A program made the translations under genes and the position numbers. 64,000 nt of DNA from Methylobacterium sp. PvR107 (lineage in GTDB: Bacteria; Pseudomonadota; Alphaproteobacteria; Rhizobiales; Beijerinckiaceae), in the NCBI RefSeq assembly GCF_017833295.1, contig NZ_JAFIBW010000001.1, positions 5,332,001 through 5,396,000 on the forward strand, read 5' to 3'. The notes beneath the pieces are model-generated. The model was not told where the DNA came from, made no database searches, and worked only from the letters and a program-made list of their open reading frames with translations. Below are positions 31,885-43,524 of this stretch, piece after piece; position 1 is the first letter of the stretch; every line of letters starts with the position of its first letter.

Positions 31885-32472
31885 ATGACCGAAACCAACC
31901 TCACCGTCGCCGTGATCGACCCGAGCCGAGCCCGCGCGGCGATCCTGGAGGAAGGGCTGCGAGCAGCCGGCGTCGGCCGCGTCGTCGTCATCCCCGACAC
32001 CGCGGACCTGCTGGAGCGCGTCACAGCGCTGCGGCCCGACGTGGTGGTGATCCATCTCGAGAGCCCGAGCCGGGACATCCTGGAGCAGATGTCGGGGGTC
32101 TCACGGCAGGTCGAGCGGCCGGTGGCGATGTTCGTCGACCGCTCGGACACGACCATGATGCAGGCCGCCGTGGATGCAGGGATCTCGGCCTACGTCGTGG
32201 ACGGGCTGCGCGCCGAGCGGATCAAATCGATCCTCGACATCGCAATCCTGCGCTTCAACGCCTTCGCGCGGCTTCAGCGTGAACTCTCGGAGGCGCGGGG
32301 CGAGCTCGCCGATCGCAAGCTGATCGAGCGGGCCAAGGGCATCCTGATGAATCTGAAGGGCCTCAGCGAGGAGGAGGCGTACAAGCAGCTGCGCCGCAAG
32401 GCCATGAACGAGAAGCGCAAGATCGCCGATATCGCCCGTGCGATCGTCACCACGGCGGACCTGCTCGGATGA
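31885..32472 (+). CDS. nasT: ANTAR-domain response regulator NasT
   Basis: 195 residues. A receiver-like domain (about 1-125, TVAVIDPSRARAAILEEGL) is joined to an ANTAR RNA-binding domain (about 140-190: LIERAKGILMNLKGLSEEEA then KIADIARAIV). NasT binds paired hairpins in nas leader RNA and prevents termination; NasS holds it inactive until nitrate or nitrite is sensed. The ATG at 31885 fits the family start. It overlaps nasS by four bases. The probable target leader is at 34079-34228. Confidence 0.93.
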   Translation: MTETNLTVAVIDPSRARAAILEEGLRAAGVGRVVVIPDTADLLERVTALRPDVVVIHLESPSRDILEQMSGVSRQVERPVAMFVDRSDTTMMQAAVDAGISAYVVDGLRAERIKSILDIAILRFNAFARLQRELSEARGELADRKLIERAKGILMNLKGLSEEEAYKQLRRKAMNEKRKIADIARAIVTTADLLG

Positions 32473-33467
32473 GGCTCCAGCTCGGCTACGTCCCGCTCTG
32501 CGACGCCGCGCCCCTCATCGCCGCGCACGAGCTCGGCTTTGCCCGGTCCGAGGGGCTCGAACTCGACCTTACGGCCGAGCCGTCCTGGGCGACCCTGCGC
32601 GACCGGCTGGCGCTCGGGCATCTCGACGGCGCCCACATGCTGGCACCGCTGGCGCTCGCCAGCCGGCTCGCCCTTTCGGGACCGCCCTCCGATTTGGTCG
32701 TGCCGCTGCAGCTCAGCGTCAACGGCAATGCCATCACCCTGTCGCGCGGCCTCTGGGCGGCGATGGATCCGGCAAGCGAGGAGCCGACGGATGTCGCCCG
32801 CGCCTTCGCGCGGGCCGCGGAGGAGCGGGCCCGGGCCGGCCGGCCCCTGACGCTGGGCACCGTCCATCCGTTCTCGTGCCACAGCTACCAGCTGCGGCTG
32901 TTCGCCGAGGCCGGCGGGCTCGACCCGGCGACCTTCCGCACCGTCGTCGTCCCGCCCCAGTACAGCGTCGAGACCCTGGCCCGCGGCCTCGTCGACGGGT
33001 TCTGCGCCGGCGCGCCATGGAACGACGTGGCGGTGGCGGCCGGGCACGGGCGCATCGCCGTGCAGGGCGGCGCGCTGGCACCCGACGCCCCCGAGAAGGT
33101 TCTGGCCGTGTCGGAGCGGCTCGGCGATGGGATCCTGCCGCTGGTGCGGGCGGTGGCGCGCGCCGGGCGCTGGTGCGCCGATCCGGAGAACCGCTCCGAG
33201 CTGATCCACCGAATCGCCCGCCGCGGCTATCTCGACCTCGACACGGCTCTGCTGGGACGGACTTTCGCGGGCGACCCCGCGGCGGCGGCGGAGGCCGGCC
33301 TGCTCCTGCGCTTCGGCGCCTCCGTCGAGGAGCCGCGCCTCAGGGACGCCGAGTGGCTGTTGGCGCAGATGCGCAGCTCGCAGCAGATCAGGTCCGGAGC
33401 CCTCGAAGGCTCCGCCGCGATGGTCTACAGGCCCGATCTCTACCGGGCCGCGGCGGCGGATCTCTGA
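32469..33467 (+). CDS. nasS: Nitrate/nitrite sensor NasS (NrtA/CmpA-like, cytoplasmic)
   Basis: 332 residues. The fold is that of NrtA-type nitrate-binding proteins (LGYVPLCDAAPLIAAHELGF, then LDGAHMLAPLALASRLAL and CAGAPWNDVAV), but there is no signal peptide or lipobox, so it stays in the cytoplasm. This is the diagnostic difference between the sensor NasS and the transport protein NrtA. Its ATG overlaps the nasT stop (ATGA), consistent with assembly of a NasS-NasT complex. Confidence 0.92.
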   Translation: MRLQLGYVPLCDAAPLIAAHELGFARSEGLELDLTAEPSWATLRDRLALGHLDGAHMLAPLALASRLALSGPPSDLVVPLQLSVNGNAITLSRGLWAAMDPASEEPTDVARAFARAAEERARAGRPLTLGTVHPFSCHSYQLRLFAEAGGLDPATFRTVVVPPQYSVETLARGLVDGFCAGAPWNDVAVAAGHGRIAVQGGALAPDAPEKVLAVSERLGDGILPLVRAVARAGRWCADPENRSELIHRIARRGYLDLDTALLGRTFAGDPAAAAEAGLLLRFGASVEEPRLRDAEWLLAQMRSSQQIRSGALEGSAAMVYRPDLYRAAAADL

Positions 33468-33612
33468 GGCCGGCGACAGACGGACATGTTCGTCATTTTC
33501 GTGCAACGTCAGGCCGGGAAATGCTGGAACGTCGAGCGGGCTTGCCCGTTGTGTCTCCGCCATGCCCGGATGCCGCAAGCTCGATACTGGATCGTCGTCG
33601 TCGCATCCGCAG

Positions 33613-33774
33613 ATGCGGGTCGAACTCCGACGCTACGTCTGCCGGGGCGCGAAGCCGCCCAGGGCGTCCAATGACAACCGCCGTCCCGGTATCGGCCACG
33701 CCTGGTACTGGGTCCTGGCAGCCGGCGTGATGCCGACGCTGGGCCTCCTGGCGATACTCTCCTCGTTGATCTGA
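33613..33774 (+). CDS. Possible small membrane protein (53 aa)
   Basis: Not recognised. The N-terminal half is basic and contains ASNDNRRPG, a NDN-type motif that recurs in small Hyphomicrobiales proteins. The C-terminal half is hydrophobic (WYWVLAAGVMPTLGLLAILS), consistent with one membrane span. No clear ribosome site precedes the ATG. It lies between nasS and the nas leader. Confidence 0.35.
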   Translation: MRVELRRYVCRGAKPPRASNDNRRPGIGHAWYWVLAAGVMPTLGLLAILSSLI

Positions 33775-34052
33775 ATCGGTTCGGCCGGTCGGGCGACGCG
33801 CTGCCACGTGGCGGCGGTCGCGGCCTGTCTCGGCCGGGGCCGGCGTTCAGCCGCCCGGGTCGGCGGCGCCCGCGGGCGAAGCGAGGCGTCACCGCGCGTC
33901 TCCGGCCGAACGCGACCTCCGCCGCCTGCCGATTGAGCCGCCGTGCGCCCGTTTTTTGTGCAGCGCATCGTGCAGGGCCGTGCCCCGCGCCAACACAGCG
34001 GTGATCAAACTTTCCTCAACGGCCGGAATGGCTTAGCGCGCCGCCGCCAACT

Positions 34053-34068
34053 TGGCACGAAGCCTGCT
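34053..34068 (+). promoter_or_regulatory. Sigma-54 (RpoN) promoter for the nitrate assimilation genes
   Basis: TGGCACG-N4-CTGCT matches the -24/-12 consensus TGGCACG-N4-TTGCW with one mismatch, and the GG and GC dinucleotides are 12 bases apart as required. It predicts transcription start near 34079, exactly at the base of the first leader hairpin. Confidence 0.8.
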
Positions 34069-34078
34069 TGGATCTTGG

Positions 34079-34228
34079 CGTCCGTCAACGGCGACGGACA
34101 GCGCCGTCAGCGAGGCCGCTGATCCGGTTCTCCTGAGGCAGCCCCCTGCCGAGAGACGACCGGCAGCGGCTTTTTCGTGGCGGTCCGCCAACGATCCTGC
34201 ATCCGAGGTTCCAAGACGCGATCGAGCG
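34079..34228 (+). promoter_or_regulatory. NasT-responsive (ANTAR) leader RNA with antiterminator and terminator
   Basis: Hairpin P1 has a 7-bp perfect stem (34080-34086 with 34093-34099) and the hexaloop AACGGC, with A at position 1 and G at position 4, as ANTAR targets require. A second hairpin (34107-34112 with 34117-34122) overlaps the left arm of the terminator at 34115-34175, so the two exclude each other. This is the expected arrangement for NasT antitermination. The loop of the second hairpin does not fit the A1/G4 rule well. Confidence 0.75.
34115..34175 (+). terminator. Intrinsic terminator inside the nas leader
   Basis: Stem GCCGCTG (34115-34121) pairs with CAGCGGC (34164-34170), continues with CCGGT/ACCGG, TCTC/GAGA and GGCAG/CTGCC, and is followed by five T (34171-34175). 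It ends 53 bases before the first coding start. Confidence 0.82.
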
Positions 34229-35497
34229 ATGGCGACATCTCCTACGCACACCCGTGTTCACGATCCGCGCGCCGAAACCGGGCCGCCGCGCGAGCGACTC
34301 GTCGTCGTCGGCAACGGCATGGCGTCCCTACGCTTTCTGGAGCGCCTGACCGAGGGCTCCCCCGGCCGCTACGACGTGACCTGCGTCGGCGCGGAGCCGA
34401 CCGCCGCCTACAACCGGGTCCTGCTCTCCTCGCTGCTCGGCGGCGAGGTCGACGAGGCGGCCTGCGCGTTCCGCAACCTCGACTGGTACGCTGCCCACGG
34501 CATCCGCCTGATCACCGGCGCGCCGGTGACGCAGATCGACCGGGAGAACGGCATTGTGATCGTGGGCGAGACCCACATCCTGCCCTTCGACAAGCTGGTG
34601 CTCGCGGTCGGATCCCTTCCCATCCGCCTGCCTAAGCCCGGCATGGACCTTCCGGGTGTCATCACCTTTCGCGACCTTGCCGATGTCGCGGCGATCCGGA
34701 AGGCCGCCGTCCAGCATGCCCGCGCCATCGTCATCGGCGGCGGATTGCTGGGCCTTGAGGCTGCGGTCGGGCTCGCGCGCCTCGGGGTCGACACGAGCCT
34801 GCTCCACGTCATGGACCGGCTGATGGAGCGCCAGCTCGATCATCATGCCGCCGGACTGGTGAAGCGCGCCATGGAAGCGCGTGGCGTGCGGATCATCCTC
34901 AAGGCCGACACCGACCGGATCGAGGGGGACGGCCGCGTCGAGCGCCTCGTCCTGGCCGACGGCACCGTTCTCCCGGCCGATCTGGTGGTGATGTCGGTGG
35001 GCGTGCGCCCCTCGGTGGCGCTGGCGCAGGCTGCCGGGCTGACGATCGGCCGCGGCATCACGGTCGACGACCGGATGACGACCTCGGATTCGCGCATCTT
35101 CGCGCTGGGCGAGTGTGCCGAGCACCGCGGCCAGGTCTACGGGCTGGTCGAGCCCGCCTATGAGCAGGCCGAAACGCTGGCCCGCCACCTCGCCGGTCAT
35201 CCGGCCGAGTACCGCGGGACGGCTCTGTCCACGAGCCTCAAGGTGTCGGGCCTGCCGGTCTTCTCGGCGGGGATCGTGGACACGCCCGACGATGCCGAGG
35301 CGATCGTGCTCTCCGATCCGGGTGCCGGCCTCTATCGCAAGCTGCTTGTGCGCGACGGCCGGCTGCTCGGCGCGGTGTTCGTCGGCGACATCGCCGAGCA
35401 GGGCGCCTGCAAGGGGCTGATCCGCTCCGGCGATCCGATCGAGAGCGTGGACGACTTGATGTTCGGGCGCCCGGCGCCCGAGCCGCTGGCTGCTTGA
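34229..35497 (+). CDS. NirB-like FAD-dependent NAD(P)H oxidoreductase (nitrite reductase electron donor)
   Basis: 422 residues, with two Rossmann FAD/NAD(P) domains: VVVGNGMASLRFLERL near residue 28 and IVIGGGLLGLEAAVGLARLG near 165, with a FALGECAEH FAD motif near 290. It resembles the N-terminal half of NirB/NasB (and NasC-type proteins) but stops before the BFD and siroheme parts. It probably passes NAD(P)H electrons to the reductases encoded downstream. The ATG at 34229 is the only start after the leader terminator. The stop lies 10 bases before the NirA-type gene. Confidence 0.85.
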   Translation: MATSPTHTRVHDPRAETGPPRERLVVVGNGMASLRFLERLTEGSPGRYDVTCVGAEPTAAYNRVLLSSLLGGEVDEAACAFRNLDWYAAHGIRLITGAPVTQIDRENGIVIVGETHILPFDKLVLAVGSLPIRLPKPGMDLPGVITFRDLADVAAIRKAAVQHARAIVIGGGLLGLEAAVGLARLGVDTSLLHVMDRLMERQLDHHAAGLVKRAMEARGVRIILKADTDRIEGDGRVERLVLADGTVLPADLVVMSVGVRPSVALAQAAGLTIGRGITVDDRMTTSDSRIFALGECAEHRGQVYGLVEPAYEQAETLARHLAGHPAEYRGTALSTSLKVSGLPVFSAGIVDTPDDAEAIVLSDPGAGLYRKLLVRDGRLLGAVFVGDIAEQGACKGLIRSGDPIESVDDLMFGRPAPEPLAA

Positions 35498-35507
35498 GGA
35501 GGCGCGG

Positions 35508-37325
35508 ATGTCCGAGACCACCACCCAGATCGCCGCGGTCGCGTTCGAGGCCGAGCAGAAGCGCTATCTCGAAGGCTTCGCATCCGGCATCGCCGCCGTC
35601 CGCATGACCGGCGGCCTCGCCGCGGGCGGGGCCGGGGCGGCCGCGCCGCCCGCCGAGCTCACGGGCCCGGACGCGATCCACATCAAGGCGCAGGACCGGA
35701 CCGTCAAGGACGGCGGCAAGCTCTGCGAGCAGGAGAAGTGGAAGCGCGCCGAGAGCCCGTTCGACGGCCACAACCGCCTGATCCAGGAGGCCGCCGCCGG
35801 CAAGCAGCCGAAGCCCGAGGACAATTTCCGCTGGCGCTATCACGGGATGTTCTGGGTCGCGCCGAATCAGGTCTCGTACATGTGCCGGATGCGGATCCCG
35901 AACGGGATCCTGCACCACTGGCAGTTCGCGGGCGTCGCCGACCTCGCCGACCAGCATGGCGGCGGCTACGTCCACGTGACGACCCGGGCCAACCTGCAGG
36001 TCCGCGAGATCAGCCCCGAGCACGCCCAGCCCTTCCTCGACGGCCTGACCGATATCGGCCTCACGGCCCAGGGCGCGGGTGCCGACAACATCCGCAATGT
36101 CACCGGCTCGTCCACCGCCGGCATCGACGCGCAGGAGTTGCTGGACACGCGCCCGCTCGCCAAGTCCTGGCACAACTGGATCCTGAACGACCGCTCGCTC
36201 TACGGCCTGCCGCGCAAGTTCAACGTCGCCTTCGACGGCAGCGGCGTCATGCCGACCCTGGAGGAGACCAACGATATCGGCTTCCAGGCGGTGGAGGTTC
36301 TGGAGGGCGCCTCGGTGCCTCCGGGGATCTACATGCGCCTCGTGCTCGGCGGCATCTCGGGCCACCGGGACCTCGCCCGCGATACCGGCATCGTGCTGAA
36401 GCCAGCGGATTGCAATGCGGTCGCCGACGCGATCATCCGTGTGTTCATCGAGAACGGCGACCGGACCAACCGCAACAAGAGCCGGATGAAATACGTCCTC
36501 GACGCCTGGGGCTTCGACAAGTACCTCGCCGCCGTCGAAGACAAGCTCGGCCGCAAGCTCGACCGGGTCGCGCCGGAGCGCGTGGCGCCGCGCAAGGCCA
36601 CCGACCGCTTCGCCCATGTCGGGGTCCACGCCCAGAAGCAGCCCGGCCTCAACTGGATCGGCGTGGTCCTGCCGGTCGGCAAGATGACCAGCGATCAGGT
36701 GCGGGCGCTCGCCAAGATCGCGGCCGAGTGCGGCGACGGACAGATCCGCCTCACCGTCTGGCAGAACTTCATTTTTTCCGGCGTACCGGATGCGAAGGTC
36801 GCCGAGGTTGAGCAGCGGGTGCTCGATCTCGGCCTCACGACCAAGGCGGCCGGCATCCGCTCCGGCCTCGTAGCCTGCACGGGCGCCAAGGGCTGCAAAT
36901 TCGCGGCCTCCGACACCAAGGGCCACGCGCTGATCATCGCCGACCATGTCGAGAAGGCCGTGCCGAACCTCGACGTGCCGGTGAACGTCCACCTCACCGG
37001 CTGCCACCACAGCTGCGCCCAGCACTACATCGGCGATATCGGGCTGATCGGCGCCAAGGTCGTCGTCTCGGAGGAGGGCGACACCGTCGAGGGCTACGAC
37101 ATCGTGGTCGGCGGCGGCTTCGCCGAAAACCCCAAGATCGGCACCGAGATCTGGAAGGCCGTGAAGGCCGAGGACGCACCCTCCCGCGTCGAGGCGCTGC
37201 TGCGCGCCTACCTCGCCCTCCGCCAGGGGCCCGAGGAAAGCTTCCTGGCCTTCACCAGCCGCACCGGCGCGGAGGCGCTCCGCGACGCCGCCGAGGACCA
37301 GCCCGCCCTGAAGGCCGCCGCATGA
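35508..37325 (+). CDS. NirA-type siroheme nitrite/sulfite reductase
   Basis: 605 residues. Two ferredoxin-like half domains (FRWRYHGMFWVAPNQ, HVTTRANLQVREI) surround the siroheme and [4Fe-4S] site. The cluster Cys are in ACTGAKGC (CX5C) and GCHHSC (CX3C). It reduces nitrite to ammonium by six electrons; context with nasA, cysG and a nas leader favours nitrite over sulfite. An N-terminal extension of about 75 residues precedes the first half domain. The ATG at 35508 has GAGGAGG. Its stop overlaps the flavoprotein start (ATGA). Confidence 0.9.
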   Translation: MSETTTQIAAVAFEAEQKRYLEGFASGIAAVRMTGGLAAGGAGAAAPPAELTGPDAIHIKAQDRTVKDGGKLCEQEKWKRAESPFDGHNRLIQEAAAGKQPKPEDNFRWRYHGMFWVAPNQVSYMCRMRIPNGILHHWQFAGVADLADQHGGGYVHVTTRANLQVREISPEHAQPFLDGLTDIGLTAQGAGADNIRNVTGSSTAGIDAQELLDTRPLAKSWHNWILNDRSLYGLPRKFNVAFDGSGVMPTLEETNDIGFQAVEVLEGASVPPGIYMRLVLGGISGHRDLARDTGIVLKPADCNAVADAIIRVFIENGDRTNRNKSRMKYVLDAWGFDKYLAAVEDKLGRKLDRVAPERVAPRKATDRFAHVGVHAQKQPGLNWIGVVLPVGKMTSDQVRALAKIAAECGDGQIRLTVWQNFIFSGVPDAKVAEVEQRVLDLGLTTKAAGIRSGLVACTGAKGCKFAASDTKGHALIIADHVEKAVPNLDVPVNVHLTGCHHSCAQHYIGDIGLIGAKVVVSEEGDTVEGYDIVVGGGFAENPKIGTEIWKAVKAEDAPSRVEALLRAYLALRQGPEESFLAFTSRTGAEALRDAAEDQPALKAAA

Positions 37326-38926
37326 CCCAGCACGTCTCGCCCCCCCTCGTCCTGATCCCCGAGACCGCGCCCTTCAACGAGGACCAGCGCGCCTGGCTCT
37401 CCGGCTATTTCGCGGCCCTGCTCGGCCCCGCCGTCGCGGGCGCCACGGCGCTCGCGCCCGGCGAAGGCCCCGCGACCGGGCCGAAACTGGCCGACAACGA
37501 CGACGCCCCCTGGCACGACCCGTCGGTGCCGCTCGGCGACCGGATGGAGATGGCCAAGGACCGGCCCGAGCCGCAGAAGCTGATGGCCGCCATGGCCCAG
37601 CAGGATTGCGGCCAGTGCGGCTACAACTGCGCCGACTACGCCAACGCGATCTTCCTGAAGAACGAGGCGCGCCTGAACCTTTGCCAGCCCGGCGGCAAAG
37701 AGACTTTGCGCATGCTCAAGAAGCTGGACGAGGAGTTCGGCGCCGCCGGAGGCACCCCGGCCGCGCCGAAGGCGGACGACGACGCCCCGAAGGCCGCCGC
37801 CGACCTCGGTCCCCTCGGCTTCTGCCGCGAGAACCCGGTCGAGGCGCTGTTCCTGTTCCGCCGCCGCCTCAACGATCCGGGCGGCGAGAAGGAGACGTGG
37901 CACATCGAGATCGGCCTCGACGGCACGCCGATCGAGTACGAGGCCGGTGATTCGCTTGGCCTGTTCCCCGCCAACGCCCCGGCGCTGGTCGACGCGGTGA
38001 TCGCGGAACTCGGCGCCCGGCCCGAGCGGGTGATCGGCGACAGGACCCTGCGCGAGCACCTGCTGATCAACTACGCGCTCGGCGCGGCGCCCGACAACCT
38101 CTACCAGCTCCTGTCGCTGCTCACCTCGGGCGCGGCCCGCAAGAAGGCCCAGGCGCTCGCCTCCGGCGAGGATCCGGACGGGGACGCGGCCTATCTCGAC
38201 GTGCTCGGCGCGCTCCACAAATTCCCGGGCGCGCGGCCCGACGCCGAGGTCTTTCTGGAGGCCTTGGACGAGCTACAGCCGCGGCTCTACTCGATCTCGT
38301 CTTCGCCCAAGATGGATGTCGGCCGCGTGTCGCTGACCGTGGACGCGGTGCGCTACAATCATCGCTCGCGGCTGCGGCTCGGCGTCGCCTCGACCCATCT
38401 GGGCGAGCGCCTGCCCGAGCAAACCAAGGTGAAGATCTACCTTCAGAAGGCGCACGGGTTCGGGCTGCCGGCCGACCTGTCGAAGGACGTGATCATGTGC
38501 GGCCCCGGCACCGGGATCGCGCCGTTCCGGGCCTTCCTGCGCGAGCGCGCCGCCACGCAGGCGCCGGGCCGCAACTGGCTGTTCTACGGCCACCAGCGGC
38601 AGGCGAGCGACTTCTTCTACAAGGACGAACTGACCAAGCTGAAGGACGACAAGGTGCTCACCCGCCTGTCCCTGGCCTGGTCCCGGGACGGCACAGAGAA
38701 GACCTACGTTCAAGACCGGATGCGCGAGAACGGCGCCGATCTGTGGAAGTGGCTCGAAGGCGGCGCGCATTTCTACGTCTGCGGCGACGCCAAGCGCATG
38801 GCCAAGGATGTCGAGCGGGCGATCATCGACGTGGCGGCGCAGTTTGGCGGCAAGAGCCCCGAGGACGCGGTGGCGTATCTCGCCGCGCTGAAGAAGGCCG
38901 GGCGCTATCAGGCCGACGTGTACTGA
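37322..38926 (+). CDS. CysJ-like flavoprotein reductase with N-terminal Fe-S domain
   Basis: 534 residues. The N-terminal part has a four-Cys Fe-S motif (DCGQCGYNCADYANA and LCQPGG, about residues 95-127). It is followed by FAD-binding and NADPH-binding domains of the CysJ/P450-reductase type: RLYSISSSPK, GPGTGIAPFRAFLRER and FYVCGDAKRMAKDVE. The flavodoxin (FMN) domain of ordinary CysJ is absent, apparently replaced by the Fe-S domain. It probably relays NADPH electrons to the NirA-type reductase, whose gene it overlaps. A role in sulfite reduction remains possible. Confidence 0.87.
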   Translation: MTQHVSPPLVLIPETAPFNEDQRAWLSGYFAALLGPAVAGATALAPGEGPATGPKLADNDDAPWHDPSVPLGDRMEMAKDRPEPQKLMAAMAQQDCGQCGYNCADYANAIFLKNEARLNLCQPGGKETLRMLKKLDEEFGAAGGTPAAPKADDDAPKAAADLGPLGFCRENPVEALFLFRRRLNDPGGEKETWHIEIGLDGTPIEYEAGDSLGLFPANAPALVDAVIAELGARPERVIGDRTLREHLLINYALGAAPDNLYQLLSLLTSGAARKKAQALASGEDPDGDAAYLDVLGALHKFPGARPDAEVFLEALDELQPRLYSISSSPKMDVGRVSLTVDAVRYNHRSRLRLGVASTHLGERLPEQTKVKIYLQKAHGFGLPADLSKDVIMCGPGTGIAPFRAFLRERAATQAPGRNWLFYGHQRQASDFFYKDELTKLKDDKVLTRLSLAWSRDGTEKTYVQDRMRENGADLWKWLEGGAHFYVCGDAKRMAKDVERAIIDVAAQFGGKSPEDAVAYLAALKKAGRYQADVY

Positions 38927-39145: not shown

Positions 39146-41842
39146 ATGACCCAGCCAGTGGCGGCGCCGACGGTGCGGACCACCTGCCCCTATTGCGGGG
39201 TCGGATGCGGCGTGCTCGCGACCCCGGACGAGCAGGGCGGCGCCACCATCGCGGGCGATACCGAGCACCCGGCCAATTTCGGCCGCCTGTGCTCGAAGGG
39301 CTCGGCGCTGGGCGAGACCCTGTCGCTGGAGAACCGCCTGCTCCATCCGCAGGTCGATGGCGCCCAGGTCTCGTGGGACGCGGCCCTCGACACGGTCACG
39401 GATAAGCTGCGCGCGGTCGCCGCGGAGCACGGGTCGGACGCCATCGCCTTCTACCTCTCGGGCCAACTTCTCACCGAGGACTATTACGTCGCCAACAAAC
39501 TCGCGAAGGGCTTCATCGGCACGCCGCACGTGGACACCAATTCGCGGCTGTGCATGTCGAGCGCGGTCGCGGCCCACCGCCGGGCCTTCGGCTCCGACAC
39601 GGTCCCGGGCTGCTACGAGGATCTCGACGAGGCCGACCTGATCGTGCTGGTCGGCTCCAACACGGCCTGGTGCCACCCGATCCTGTTCCGCCGCATGGCC
39701 GACGCGAAGGAACGCCGCGGCACCAAATTCGTGGTCATCGACCCCCGCCGGACCCAGACCGCGCAGGAATCCGACCTGTTCCTCGGCATCCGGCCAGGCA
39801 CCGACACCGCCCTGTTCTCCGGCCTGCTGGTCCACCTGTCGGATAACGGTTTTCGCGATCGCGCCTTCGTCGATGCCCATACCGCCGGCCTCGACGGCGC
39901 CCTCGACCGCGCCCGCCAGATCGCACCCGACATGGCGGCGGTGGCCGCCCAGACGGGCGTGCCGGAGGCCGACATCGCGGCCTTCTACGCCCTGTTCGCC
40001 GGCACCCGCCGGGTGGTCACGGCCTTCTCGCAGGGGGTGAACCAGTCGGCGCAGGGCACCGACAAGGGCAACAGCATCATCAACTGCCACCTGATCACCG
40101 GCCGCATCGGCGAGACCGGGATGGGGCCGTTCTCGCTCACCGGACAGCCCAATGCCATGGGCGGGCGCGAGGTCGGGGGCTTGGCCAACATGCTGGCCGC
40201 CCACATGCACTTCACCCCCGAGGAGGTGGACCGGGTACGGCGCTACTGGGGCGCCCCGAGGATCATCACCGGCGAGGGCATGAAGGCGGTGGCGCTGTTC
40301 GAGGCGATCAGCCGGGGCAAGATCAAGGCGCTCTGGGTGATGGGCACGAACCCGCTGGTCTCGATGCCGCGCGCCGACGCGATCCGCGACTCGCTCGCCG
40401 GGCTCGACCTCTACGTGGTGTCCGAGGCGGTGGCGGATTCCGACACCGCCCGGGGCCGGGCCAGGACCACCGTGCTGCTCCCCGCCCAGGCCTGGGGCGA
40501 GAAGGACGGCACCGTCACCAATTCCGAGCGGCGGATCTCGCGCCAGCGCCGCTTCCTCAAGAGCCCCGGAGAGGCGCGGCCCGACTGGGCGGTGCTGTCG
40601 GAGGTCGGCCGCCGGCTCGGGCATGGCCGGGCCTTCGCGTTCGACTCCGCCGCCGCGATCTTCCGCGAGCATGCCGGGCTCTCGGCCTACGAGAACAACG
40701 GCACCCGCGATTTCGACCTTGGCGCGCTGACCGATCTCAGCGATGCCGCCTATGACGCGACCCTGCCGGTGCAATGGCCGATCCCCAGGCGCTCCGGTTT
40801 CCGGGGCGCGCCGCACGGCAAGGCGCGCCTGTTCGGCGACGGTCGGTTCTACACCTTCGACCGACGTGCCCGCTTCGTGGCGGTGCAGCCGCCGGGCCTC
40901 GCCCAGGCGGTCTCGGAGGCGTTCCCCTTCGTGCTCAACACCGGTCGGGTGCGCGACCACTGGCACACGATGACGCGGACCGGGAAGAGCCAACGCCTGT
41001 CGGCGCACCGGGCCGTCCCGTTCGTCGAGGTCCACCCGGACGACGCGGCGGCCTACGGCCTCGCGGAGGGCGGCATCGCCCGACTGACGACCGAGCACGG
41101 CGTGGCCGAGCTGGAGGTGACGGTCACCGACACGGTGGTGCCGGGGAGCCTGTTCATGCCGATGCACTGGGGCGGCGCCTTCGCATCGCAGGCCCGGGTT
41201 GGCGCGCTGGTGCGCGGCATGCCGGATCCGGTGTCTGGACAACCCGAGCTGAAAGCGACCCCGGCCTCCATCGCGCCGGTCGCCTACCGGGCCCGCGGCT
41301 TCCTGCTGTCCCGGGCGCAGGTGGCGCTGCCGGAGGGCTGGTGGTGGGCGCGGGCGGCGATCACCGGCGGCTGGGGCGTGCAGTTCGCCACGCAGGACAG
41401 CTCCCGAGCCGTGGCACTGATGGTGCGCGGCCTGATCCAGAGCGAGGCGCTGCCGGGCTGCGAGCTGGCCGAGTACGCCGATCACGCCCGGGACCGCTAC
41501 CGCTGCGCCGTCTATGACGGCACGCGCCTCGTCACCAGCCTCGCCTATGCACCCGCCGCGGCGCGCCCGGACTGGGAGGCCGCCAAGGCCCTGTTCGCCG
41601 CCGAAGAGCCGGAGACGCCTGAACGACTGGCGCTGCTCTCCGGGCGGGCTGCCACGGCTTCGGCCGGCCCGGTGGTCTGCGCCTGCCACGGCGTCGGCGC
41701 CGATGCGATCGCCGCCACCATCGCGGGGGGCGCCGGCTCGGTGGAGGCGGTGGGCGCCGCCTGCAAGGCCGGGACGAATTGCGGCTCCTGCATACCGGAG
41801 ATCCGCAAGATGCTCGCAGGTCAGACCGCCCGTGCCGCGTGA
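39146..41842 (+). CDS. nasA: Assimilatory nitrate reductase catalytic subunit NasA
   Basis: 898 residues. The N-terminal [4Fe-4S] motif is CPYCGVGCGVL with a fourth Cys in GRLCSKGSAL. The molybdopterin-guanine-dinucleotide domains follow (LCMSSAVAAHRRAFG, SQGVNQSAQGTDKGNSI, GRVRDHWHTMTRTGKS). The C-terminus carries a BFD-like [2Fe-2S] domain: VCACHGVGADAI then CKAGTNCGSC. It reduces nitrate to nitrite in the cytoplasm. It is separated from the reductases by repeat family B and is likely still part of the nas transcript. No nitrate transporter gene is adjacent. Confidence 0.93.
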   Translation: MTQPVAAPTVRTTCPYCGVGCGVLATPDEQGGATIAGDTEHPANFGRLCSKGSALGETLSLENRLLHPQVDGAQVSWDAALDTVTDKLRAVAAEHGSDAIAFYLSGQLLTEDYYVANKLAKGFIGTPHVDTNSRLCMSSAVAAHRRAFGSDTVPGCYEDLDEADLIVLVGSNTAWCHPILFRRMADAKERRGTKFVVIDPRRTQTAQESDLFLGIRPGTDTALFSGLLVHLSDNGFRDRAFVDAHTAGLDGALDRARQIAPDMAAVAAQTGVPEADIAAFYALFAGTRRVVTAFSQGVNQSAQGTDKGNSIINCHLITGRIGETGMGPFSLTGQPNAMGGREVGGLANMLAAHMHFTPEEVDRVRRYWGAPRIITGEGMKAVALFEAISRGKIKALWVMGTNPLVSMPRADAIRDSLAGLDLYVVSEAVADSDTARGRARTTVLLPAQAWGEKDGTVTNSERRISRQRRFLKSPGEARPDWAVLSEVGRRLGHGRAFAFDSAAAIFREHAGLSAYENNGTRDFDLGALTDLSDAAYDATLPVQWPIPRRSGFRGAPHGKARLFGDGRFYTFDRRARFVAVQPPGLAQAVSEAFPFVLNTGRVRDHWHTMTRTGKSQRLSAHRAVPFVEVHPDDAAAYGLAEGGIARLTTEHGVAELEVTVTDTVVPGSLFMPMHWGGAFASQARVGALVRGMPDPVSGQPELKATPASIAPVAYRARGFLLSRAQVALPEGWWWARAAITGGWGVQFATQDSSRAVALMVRGLIQSEALPGCELAEYADHARDRYRCAVYDGTRLVTSLAYAPAAARPDWEAAKALFAAEEPETPERLALLSGRAATASAGPVVCACHGVGADAIAATIAGGAGSVEAVGAACKAGTNCGSCIPEIRKMLAGQTARAA

Positions 41843-42045: not shown

Positions 42046-43524
42046 GTGACCGATACCCCCCTGCGCGCGGCCCGCGCGCCCCGCGAGACCAAGGCCGCCG
42101 GCCTCGAGCCGCTGGCGGTGCTGCCCGTCTTCGTGCCGCTGCGCGGCAAGCGGGTGGTGCTCGCCGGCTCCTCCGGCGGCGCGCCCTGGAAGGTGAAGGT
42201 GCTGGCTGCCGCCGGCGCCCATGTCGACGTCTACGCACCCGAGCCCAGCGAGGAGCTGCGCGCGGTGCCGGGCGAGATCGTGGACGGAGAGGTGGTGCTG
42301 CACGAACGCGCCTGGAGCCCGGACGATCTCTGGGGCGCGGTTTTCTGCATCGGCGCCATGGAAGACGAGATCGAGTGCGTCGCCTTCGTGGCGGCGGCCC
42401 GCGGGGCCGGTGCCATCGTCAACGCGGTCGACCGGCCGCATCTCTGCGACGTGAAGTTCGGCGCCATCGTCAACCGCTCGCCGCTCGTGGTCGGCATCTC
42501 GACGGAGGGCGCCGCCCCGGTCTTCGGCCAGACCGTGCGCGCCCGGATCGAGGCGTTGCTGCCCCGCGGCTTCGCCCGCTGGATGGGCGCGGCCCGCGAC
42601 TGGCGGGACGGCGTCACGGCGCGCTTCCACGGGTTCGCCGAGCGCCGGGCCTTCTGGGAGCGCTTCACCGACCGGGCCTTCGCGGAGCCCGACCGGGCGC
42701 CGTCGGATCGGGATCTGGCCGAGCTGCTCGGCGAGACCGAGGCTGCCCCGAAGGGCGGGGCGGTGACCCTGGTCGGTGCCGGCCCAGGCGATGCGGAACT
42801 GCTGACCCTCAAGGCGCTGCGGGCGCTGCGCAACGCCGACATGATCCTCTACGACGACCTCGTCGCCCCCGAGATCCTCGACTACGCCCGCCGCGAGGCC
42901 CGCACCATGCTGGTGGGCAAGACCGGCCACGGCCCGTCCTGCCGGCAGGACGACATCAACGCGCTGATGGTGCAGCTCGCCCGCTCCGGCAAGCAGGTGG
43001 TGCGGCTGAAATCCGGCGACCCGCTGGTCTTCGGCCGGGCCGGCGAGGAGATCGAGGCCTGCCGCGCCGCCGGCATACCGGTCACGGTGGTCCCCGGAGT
43101 CTCGGCGGCGCAGGGCGCTGCGGCAGCCCTCGGCGTGTCGCTGACCCACCGCGATGCCGCGCGCCGCCTCCAGTTCGTCACCGGCCACGACCGCCGCGGA
43201 GCGCTGCCCGACGATCTGAACTGGGGCGCGCTGGCCGATCCCAGCGTGACGACCGTGGTCTACATGCCCAAGCGCACCTTGCGGGCGCTGCTCGCCCGGG
43301 CGGTCGCGGAGGGGCTGGCGCCCGCGACGCCGGCGCTCCTCGTCTTCAACGCCACGCGCCCGAACCAGACGGCCCTGCGCGGTACGGCGGCCGATCTCGC
43401 CGATCGGGTCGAGGCAGCGGGCCTCGACGGGCCGGCGCTGCTGATGGTGGGCGAAGCCTTTTCCGAGATGCGGGGCGCGCTTCCGGCTCAGGCGGAGCAG
43501 AACCGGGTGGCGGTCCGAGGCTGA
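42046..43524 (+). CDS. cysG: Siroheme synthase CysG
   Basis: 492 residues in the usual trifunctional order. The N-terminal precorrin-2 dehydrogenase/ferrochelatase part has VPLRGKRVVLAGSSGGAPWK and a long Sirohm_synth region. The C-terminal uroporphyrinogen-III methyltransferase has VTLVGAGPGDAELLTLKAL, VRLKSGDPLVFGRAGEE and VVPGVSAAQGAAAALG. It makes siroheme for the NirA-type reductase. The start is a GTG at 42046 with an AGGACGG site. The N-terminal Rossmann glycine motif is somewhat atypical, so the dehydrogenase activity is less certain than the methyltransferase. Confidence 0.93.
   Translation: MTDTPLRAARAPRETKAAGLEPLAVLPVFVPLRGKRVVLAGSSGGAPWKVKVLAAAGAHVDVYAPEPSEELRAVPGEIVDGEVVLHERAWSPDDLWGAVFCIGAMEDEIECVAFVAAARGAGAIVNAVDRPHLCDVKFGAIVNRSPLVVGISTEGAAPVFGQTVRARIEALLPRGFARWMGAARDWRDGVTARFHGFAERRAFWERFTDRAFAEPDRAPSDRDLAELLGETEAAPKGGAVTLVGAGPGDAELLTLKALRALRNADMILYDDLVAPEILDYARREARTMLVGKTGHGPSCRQDDINALMVQLARSGKQVVRLKSGDPLVFGRAGEEIEACRAAGIPVTVVPGVSAAQGAAAALGVSLTHRDAARRLQFVTGHDRRGALPDDLNWGALADPSVTTVVYMPKRTLRALLARAVAEGLAPATPALLVFNATRPNQTALRGTAADLADRVEAAGLDGPALLMVGEAFSEMRGALPAQAEQNRVAVRG

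Follow-up and report, generated by a model that had tools for sequence, protein, structure and literature searches.

Sequence and comparative evidence indicates, with a probability that we put at about 0.88, that two inputs control the nitrate-assimilation operon of Methylobacterium sp. PvR107 through the DNA between nasS and the nasB-like gene: an NtrC-dependent sigma-54 promoter would set the start of transcription, and NasS-NasT would decide on read-through. The 761-base gap between these genes contains all the control elements that we report. Their coordinates, together with those of the surrounding genes, are given in Table 1 in the numbering of the window, that is, the whole stretch of 64,000 nucleotides that was analysed.

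Table 1. Coordinates of the control elements and genes, in window positions unless another sequence is named.
Feature	Position	Strand	Description
Window	5,332,001-5,396,000 of the contig		on a single 6.36-Mb contig
nasT	31885..32472	+	receiver-like and ANTAR RNA-binding domain, 195 aa from ATG
nasS	32469..33467	+	nitrate-binding-protein-like sensor; PF13379 NMT1_2, 203 bits
Candidate NtrC-type element GCC-N6-TTGTGCA	33947..33962	+	ends 117 bases ahead of the predicted +1
Sigma-54 -24/-12 element TGGCACGAAGCCTGCT	34053..34068	+	11/12 consensus positions
Predicted transcription start	34079	+	from -12 spacing, 12 bases past the -12 C
P1 hairpin GTCCGTC-AACGGC-GACGGAC	34080..34099	+	7 Watson-Crick pairs, loop with A1 and G4
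P2 hairpin (antiterminator) GTCAGC-GAGGCC-GCTGAT	34106..34123	+	6 pairs (one G-U), loop with G1 and G4
Predicted intrinsic terminator, overlapping P2	34115..34175	+	five-T tail
nasB-like	34229..35497	+	FAD/NAD(P) oxidoreductase, like the N-terminal part of NirB; first gene past the leader
nirA	35508..37325	+	NirA-family nitrite reductase; NF007126, 1036 bits
CysJ-like reductase	37322..38926	+	NF004859, 909 bits
nasC-like	39146..41842	+	molybdopterin nitrate reductase with BFD domain; PF00384, PF01568, PF04879, PF04324
cysG-like	42046..43524	+	siroheme synthase; PF00590, PF13241
Second sigma-54 leader, before a narK-like gene	G000:C1 ~1711340-1711482	-	congener loci L264, L279-L328

The start of nasS overlaps the stop of nasT, and both genes adjoin the nas operon, which is the gene context of a NasS-NasT regulated operon. 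The NasT product matched the ANTAR domain (PF03861) with 70.1-73 bits and PF00072 with 30.1 bits, just below the cut-off of 30.2, and NasT was matched at E ≤ 1e-60 in 108 of 111 genomes of the genus. We call the first gene past the leader nasB-like on the basis of Pfam domains and of TIGR02374, which matched over the first half of its profile with 397 bits, under the cut-off of 578. Among the loci compared, the closest relatives of the window belong to Methylobacterium. The genome has one match to the sigma-54 DNA-binding domain (rpoN). Besides NasT it encodes one further ANTAR protein, of AmiR type, in a 510-aa frame at G000:C1:3780165-3780323 (L010:1441-2973, minus strand). In one congener locus a serC leader (RF00517, 64 bits) lies upstream of nasT on the minus strand (L125:4779-4830).

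The leader contains two hexaloop hairpins and a terminator. P1 is the perfect seven-pair hairpin with loop AACGGC that the original prediction had placed one base past the start, and a linker of 6 bases separates it from P2. The second hairpin had been predicted to overlap the left arm of the terminator, and it does: the arm GCCGCTG at 34115-34121 pairs with CAGCGGC at 34164-34170, followed by TTTTT at 34171-34175. An automatic terminator scan, which permits loops of 3-8 only, reported none here. Compared with the description of ANTAR dual-hairpin leaders (Ramesh et al. 2012), the region has the two hexaloop hairpins, A1 and G4 in the P1 loop and the overlap of P2 with the terminator. The P2 loop, in which A1 and G4 are likewise expected, is GAGGCC and has G4 without A1, so that it departs from the consensus in the way that had been pointed out.

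The 150-base stretch folded better than most shuffles of it (z -2.40; 3 of 200 shuffles equal or better). In the folding of the growing transcript, P2 formed with a probability of 0.80-0.85 at transcript ends 34123, 34130, 34158 and 34165, and its formation fell to 0.00 at 34140 and to 0.58 at 34150, which we count against the model. The probability of the terminator rose from 0.39 at end 34165 to 0.97 at 34170 and 0.99 at 34175. P2 and the terminator are mutually exclusive in folding, and P1 with P2 (-44.5 kcal/mol) lies 5.9 kcal/mol above P1 with the terminator (-50.4 kcal/mol). Because the terminator folding is the more stable one, termination would be the default unless something holds P2. 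In the forced fold with P1 and P2, G1 of the P2 loop (34112-34117) pairs with C6, which shrinks the hexaloop to four bases. An alternative pairing of the 3' arm of P1 with the start of P2 (GACGG/CCGTC) is possible in 89% of the alignment cells; it was dropped because it showed no two-sided changes and a folding probability of at most 0.02.

The conservation of the leader was examined with a model, R1, made from 26 sequences (the window and 25 loci of the genus) in which only P1 and P2 were aligned and which contained no promoter bases. R1 scored at least 50 bits in the window and in 74 of 80 Methylobacterium and Methylorubrum nasT loci, which gives 75 leaders; the window and 25 of the 74 loci belonged to the building set, and 49 loci are independent of it. 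In its own genome the leader of the window scored 66.3 bits and the next best match 25.1 bits. R1 found no leader in six of the 80 loci. Three of them (L124, L140 and L142) end about 1.1 kb or less past nasT, and in L138 nirA lies on the opposite strand. The other two, L102 and L103, are close relatives that keep nasTS and show neither an R1 leader nor nasB or nirA within about 5 kb downstream; NasT may have different targets in them. Applied to L077-L090, 14 loci from other families, R1 gave nothing of note, the best score being 15.3 bits. Across 297 genomes of the order, strong matches (at least 58.8 bits) occurred in the genus only, and the others listed reached at most 32.4 bits; 200 of these genomes had some match at E ≤ 0.5, and those outside the genus were treated as noise.

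All 75 leaders have A1 and G4 in the P1 loop, in a tally whose script searched for A at position 1 of that loop, and a terminator overlapping P2 was found in 73, with L164 and L125 failing the rule. The covariation that had been suggested as a check was borne out for P1 and not for P2. In alignment A3, two-sided changes occurred in four of the seven P1 pairs, with 92.9% of the cells paired. In P2 no pair had two-sided changes and variation was confined to one side, since P2 is too conserved for covariation to be visible. For P1 and P2 together, we counted 9 two-sided cells, where shuffles gave 2.8±1.3 (0 of 500 reached 9); pairs with two-sided changes numbered 4 (shuffles 1.9; 2 of 500), and the covariation score was 0.222 against 0.178 (1 of 500). 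Further pair types were barely above the shuffles (10 against 8.8; 65 of 500). As a control, the structure slid by +3 gave 10 two-sided cells against 9, yet just 34.5% of the cells were paired. Overall, the layout of putative promoter, P1 and P2 is widely conserved in the genus.

The predicted promoter has the 12-base spacing from GG (34054-34055) to GC (34066-34067) that had been described, and it was scored with a GG-N10-GC -24/-12 consensus string, which we take to represent the sigma-54 promoter. Taken alone, the element is not significant: the 64-kb window, on both strands, has 4 sites scoring at least 10/12, and 20 Markov resamples averaged 4.2. Its combination with an A1/G4 hexaloop hairpin of at least 6 pairs at the same distance was seen a single time in the window and in none of the 20 resamples. 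The best upstream site scored 11/12 in 59 of the 75 leaders and 10/12 in the remaining 16; counted across these loci with their leaders, sites of at least 10 have a density of 0.067 per kb and strand. Because the site is kept in 75 of 75 leaders that were detected without using the promoter, coincidence is very unlikely.

The near absence of a spacer between promoter and P1 is real as well. The distance from the -12 C to P1 is 12 bases in 59 of the 75 leaders, 13 in 6, 15 in 1 and 16 in 9. We suspected that the 12-base distance was constrained, as a kind of lock, and rejected this on comparison with the linker between P1 and P2: the fraction of leader pairs that differ in promoter-P1 length is 0.12 in the clade of the window and 0.37 among all leaders, and the corresponding values for the linker are 0.00 and 0.54; we therefore claim no special constraint on the spacer. 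The 59 twelve-base spacers have a mean pairwise identity of 33%.

Further upstream, the most common 8-mers before the 75 promoters are pieces of GCM-N6-TNGTGCA, which we regard from its sequence as a candidate NtrC enhancer. The motif is present in 67 of the 75 upstream regions, compared with 0.1% of shuffles and 2.7% of pieces drawn at random from these loci, which may themselves include the element. In 41 of the 67 regions its end lies 117-119 bases ahead of +1, and in the remainder 106-274 bases. Its half-site spacing, GCM-N10-GCA, is that of the Paracoccus NtrC consensus as given in the available part of the source (PMC5424462), and two consensus letters differ. The proposed reading as RpoN control joined to NasS-NasT control thus gains support, at the level of sequence, from nasTS, the nas operon, rpoN, the sigma-54 sites in 75 of 75 leaders, the NtrC-like element in 67 of 75, the covariation of P1 and the terminator overlapping P2 in 73 of 75.

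The elements suggest the following course of events. When nitrogen is short, phosphorylated NtrC bound at 33947-33962 would activate sigma-54 RNA polymerase at 34053-34068, and the transcript would begin near 34079, almost directly at the base of P1. When nitrate is absent, NasS would hold NasT, and the polymerase would make P1 and, some of the time, P2, until the more stable terminator formed and stopped it. Nitrate or nitrite would cause NasS to release NasT, whose ANTAR domains would hold the loops of P1 and P2. P2 held by NasT would retain the left arm of the terminator, with read-through into nasB-nirA-cysJ-nasC-cysG as the predicted outcome.

The second loop divides the leaders into two groups. 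It reads GAGGCC in 30 leaders, GAGGCT in 2, AGAGCC in 27, AAAGCC in 8 and AAGGCC in 8, so that position 1 is G in 32 of the 75, where it is fixed in the clade of the window, and A in 43. The odd base is common to 32 related leaders and hence not a sequencing error. A single change at this position accounts for the G1 leaders on a nasTS tree of 80 rows made with a quick method, and the loss of nrtABC takes two. Of the 43 A1 leaders, 42 are followed by NrtA; none of the 32 G1 leaders is, and nasB comes next in them. In the genome of the window, the only match to NrtA was nasS, with 32% identity. In the locus of the A1 leader that is the exception, L134 from Methylobacterium gossipiicola, nrtABC is missing from the stretch that separates the leader from nasB, an absence independent of that in the clade of the window. 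Elsewhere G1 occurs in 3 of 20 other-family leaders (L089, L212, L216) and in two Rfam narK members (L333, L355). The other G1 loops encountered (GAAGCC, GATGCC, GCAGCC, GAAGAC, GATGAC) likewise end in C; GAGGCT ends in T. We also looked for a change in NasT accompanying that of the loop base. At the thresholds used, only residues 45 (receiver) and 191 (ANTAR, T versus A) separate the groups; because the groups are clades, these residues prove nothing, and the co-change was rejected as evidence.

The G1 base counts against the model, since A1 was found to be important in both P1 and P2 of ANTAR leaders according to the available portions of two reports (PMC3369931, PMC3369936). It could mean that only P1 and the terminator act, that the NasT of this clade no longer uses P2 after the loss of A1, and that the leader is decaying or constitutively attenuated following the loss of nrtABC. 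The presence of G1 in all 32 leaders of the clade, none of which has nrtABC behind it any longer, would fit this account, as would the fact that the tree requires just one change at this loop position, and the ability of G1 to pair with C6 and close the loop. However, the P2 stem and loop are intact throughout the clade, the overlapping terminator is present in all its members except L125, G1 is also found in the other-family leaders and narK members named above, and L134 keeps A1 where nrtABC is absent. On balance we consider the loss of P2 function unlikely.

Two other explanations concern the 5' end. P1, with its foot at about +2 in most of the genus, might mainly shield the 5' end of the mRNA or tune early elongation, with NasT regulation secondary, and the narK-like leaders described below, which have a different hairpin at that place and P1 downstream of it, are in keeping with such a role. 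However, every P1 loop has A1 and G4, and 73 of 75 leaders have the terminator overlapping P2; protection needs neither of these, so it is insufficient alone, and we give this explanation very little weight. It is more improbable still that the sigma-54 match is fortuitous, with the promoter further upstream and the hairpins forming an ordinary leader. The chance frequency of such sites in the window would allow it, but the site stands at a short distance from P1 in all 75 leaders, the NtrC-like element accompanies it in most of them, and no sigma-70-like site was found in 33500-34800.

The control logic is already known from Pseudomonas nalA and Klebsiella nasF, and the combination is not new in kind. 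As far as the available text describes it, the Pseudomonas nirBD leader NalA has an NtrC/sigma-54 start, a leader RNA and NasS-NasT control by nitrate (PMC12830290). The inputs described for P. putida and P. aeruginosa, and their order, are the same as those predicted for the window; the operon of the window is a different one (nasB-nirA-cysJ-nasC-cysG), and its clade has G1 in P2. Klebsiella nasF, in the accessible parts of the reports (PMC3369931, PMC3369936), shares the P1 and P2 hexaloops and the overlap of P2 with the terminator, and its antitermination is induced by nitrate. There the sensor NasR is a one-component NIT-ANTAR protein, whereas here the two proteins NasS and NasT are encoded, and both nasF loops have A1, unlike P2 of the window. 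Paracoccus denitrificans nasA has the same order of nasTS, leader and nas genes (PMC3795266, PMC5424462). In the sections available to us, its leader RNA is bound by NasT (PMC3795266), and hairpin HI is required for expression while mutation of HII has little effect on nitrate (PMC3795266, PMC5424462). By contrast with the window, the same sections report no sigma-54 site, and the NtrC site is given there as not yet identified (PMC3795266, PMC5424462).

Outside the genus, a strict scan for hairpins plus terminator in 68 loci of the order (L077-L090, L209-L262) gave the 20 other-family leaders; the scan presupposed A1 and G4 (A or G at position 1 of P2) and required an exact six-mer of the terminator, and it misses leaders such as L085 and L088. 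A sigma-54 site of at least 10 was present in 13 of the 20 and absent in 7. We also examined 5 of 208 plasmid records with a NasT relative. A Rhizobium rhizogenes plasmid has a 12/12 site and P1, with P2 and terminator recognised by eye. The plasmid leaders of Haematobacter, Paracoccus yeei and Blastomonas (Rhodobacterales/Sphingomonadales) have hexaloop hairpins and no site of at least 9, and in the unannotated stretch of Sinorhizobium meliloti pSymB at which we guessed (L272:6700-7600) neither site nor hairpins were found. The coupling of promoter and hairpins thus depends on the lineage; that the two are not always joined outside the genus counts against the model. In L085, L086, L088 and L089, P1 lies at least 30 bases from the -12 C, and another hairpin seems, by eye, to lie just past +1, a placement that resembles that of the narK-like leaders.

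A second leader with a predicted sigma-54 promoter precedes a narK-like MFS gene (TIGR00886, 238 bits, cut-off 311.7), which is present in 99 of 110 genomes of the genus. Fifty of the 99 loci were examined with a script that presupposed A1 and G4, and 49 had a sigma-54 site and an A1/G4 hexaloop (L303 failed). The sites scored 11/12 in 42 loci, 10 in 6 and 9 in 1, and the first base of the hexaloop lies 36-39 bases past the -12 C in 47 and 45 bases past it in 2. A three-helix structure in 32 aligned leaders had 31 two-sided cells, where shuffles gave 12.4±3.9 (0 of 500), with 88.6% of the cells paired overall (5' helix 81.9%, P1 helix 85.7%, third helix 99.4%); the third helix had no two-sided change. 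The RNAalifold consensus kept the P1 core and the third hairpin and not the 5' hairpin. The loop of the third hairpin is a six-base A1/G4 loop in some rows only and has seven or eight bases elsewhere. No stretch of four consecutive T occurs from +1 to the start codon in any of the 49 leaders, 6 of which have an NtrC-like element. Rfam gave no family in L279 and two weak, unrelated matches in 8 other narK-like leaders.

The narK-like leader might thus be a second NasT-type target in the genome, one without classical antitermination, a tentative reading that we regard as doubtful. ANTAR control without a terminator has been reported for actinobacteria (PMC8164766, in the part available). The available text on a Bradyrhizobium nasT mutant describes narK expression as up, not down, and a NasT-type hairpin as predicted in the narK leader (PMC6759348). 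By analogy, that result speaks against a simple activating role of NasT at narK and makes a second target less probable. If NasT does act there, the last step would be translation, Rho or RNA stability.

Up to E = 10, region 33900-34400 matched a single Rfam family, narK RNA (RF03032), with 28.2 bits at 34054-34119 against a gathering score of 43.2, and the window's leader is accordingly not a member. At the gathering score there was no match in 11 congener loci; one congener nas leader reached 33.8 bits. The family consensus opens with GGCaC-N5-UUGCU, which equals a -24/-12 element as in the leader of the window, and continues with the hairpin CAACGGCG 16 bases past the -12 C. Its unpaired tail holds CGAC-AAAGAC-GUCG, a second hexaloop hairpin; the structure line of Rfam marks P1 only.

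In 398 genomes of Pseudomonadota, RF03032 had matches at E ≤ 0.001 in 21, of which 16 were over the cut-off. We examined 30 of the 36 matches listed (22 over the cut-off, 8 below) with a script that presupposed A1/G4 loops. Scored as sigma-54 sites, the 22 reached 11/12 in 15 cases, 10 in 5 and 9 in 2, and the 8, among them the congener nas leader with 33.8 bits, reached 12 in one case, 11 in five, 10 in one and 6 in one; these scores arise partly by construction, as the Rfam consensus contains the element, and are no independent test. Gaps of 41-44 to the hairpin (four loci over the cut-off, one below) were taken as P2 misread for P1 and were not interpreted. A nitrate gene lies directly downstream in 22 of the 22 loci over the cut-off (narK-like 15, nasC 3, nasS/nrtA-like 3, nirB 1). 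Judged by its sequence, narK RNA looks like a sigma-54 promoter joined to a NasT-type leader, which suggests that about the first third of it is promoter DNA and the remainder an ANTAR leader. Our literature search found no paper that reads narK RNA in this way; it was made without the original description of the motif, reportedly by Weinberg et al. in 2017, which may say it.

What is added here to the known control logic is its architecture across a genus, a clade with G1 in the second loop and nasB right behind the leader, the promoter-plus-leader reading of the Rfam narK RNA, and a narK-like leader without a T-run. The promoter-plus-leader reading would correct how RF03032 is read and used for annotation. 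As one clade of 32 leaders has G1, the A1 and G1 leaders offer a natural test of the rule for the P2 loop. If the second target is real, a nitrate transporter would respond to both of these signals as the operon does, but through another final step. For Methylobacterium itself, an AND gate of NtrC/sigma-54 and NasS-NasT would be the usual entry to nitrate assimilation, with all its parts within about 230 bp and its core of promoter, P1 and P2 kept in 75 leaders.
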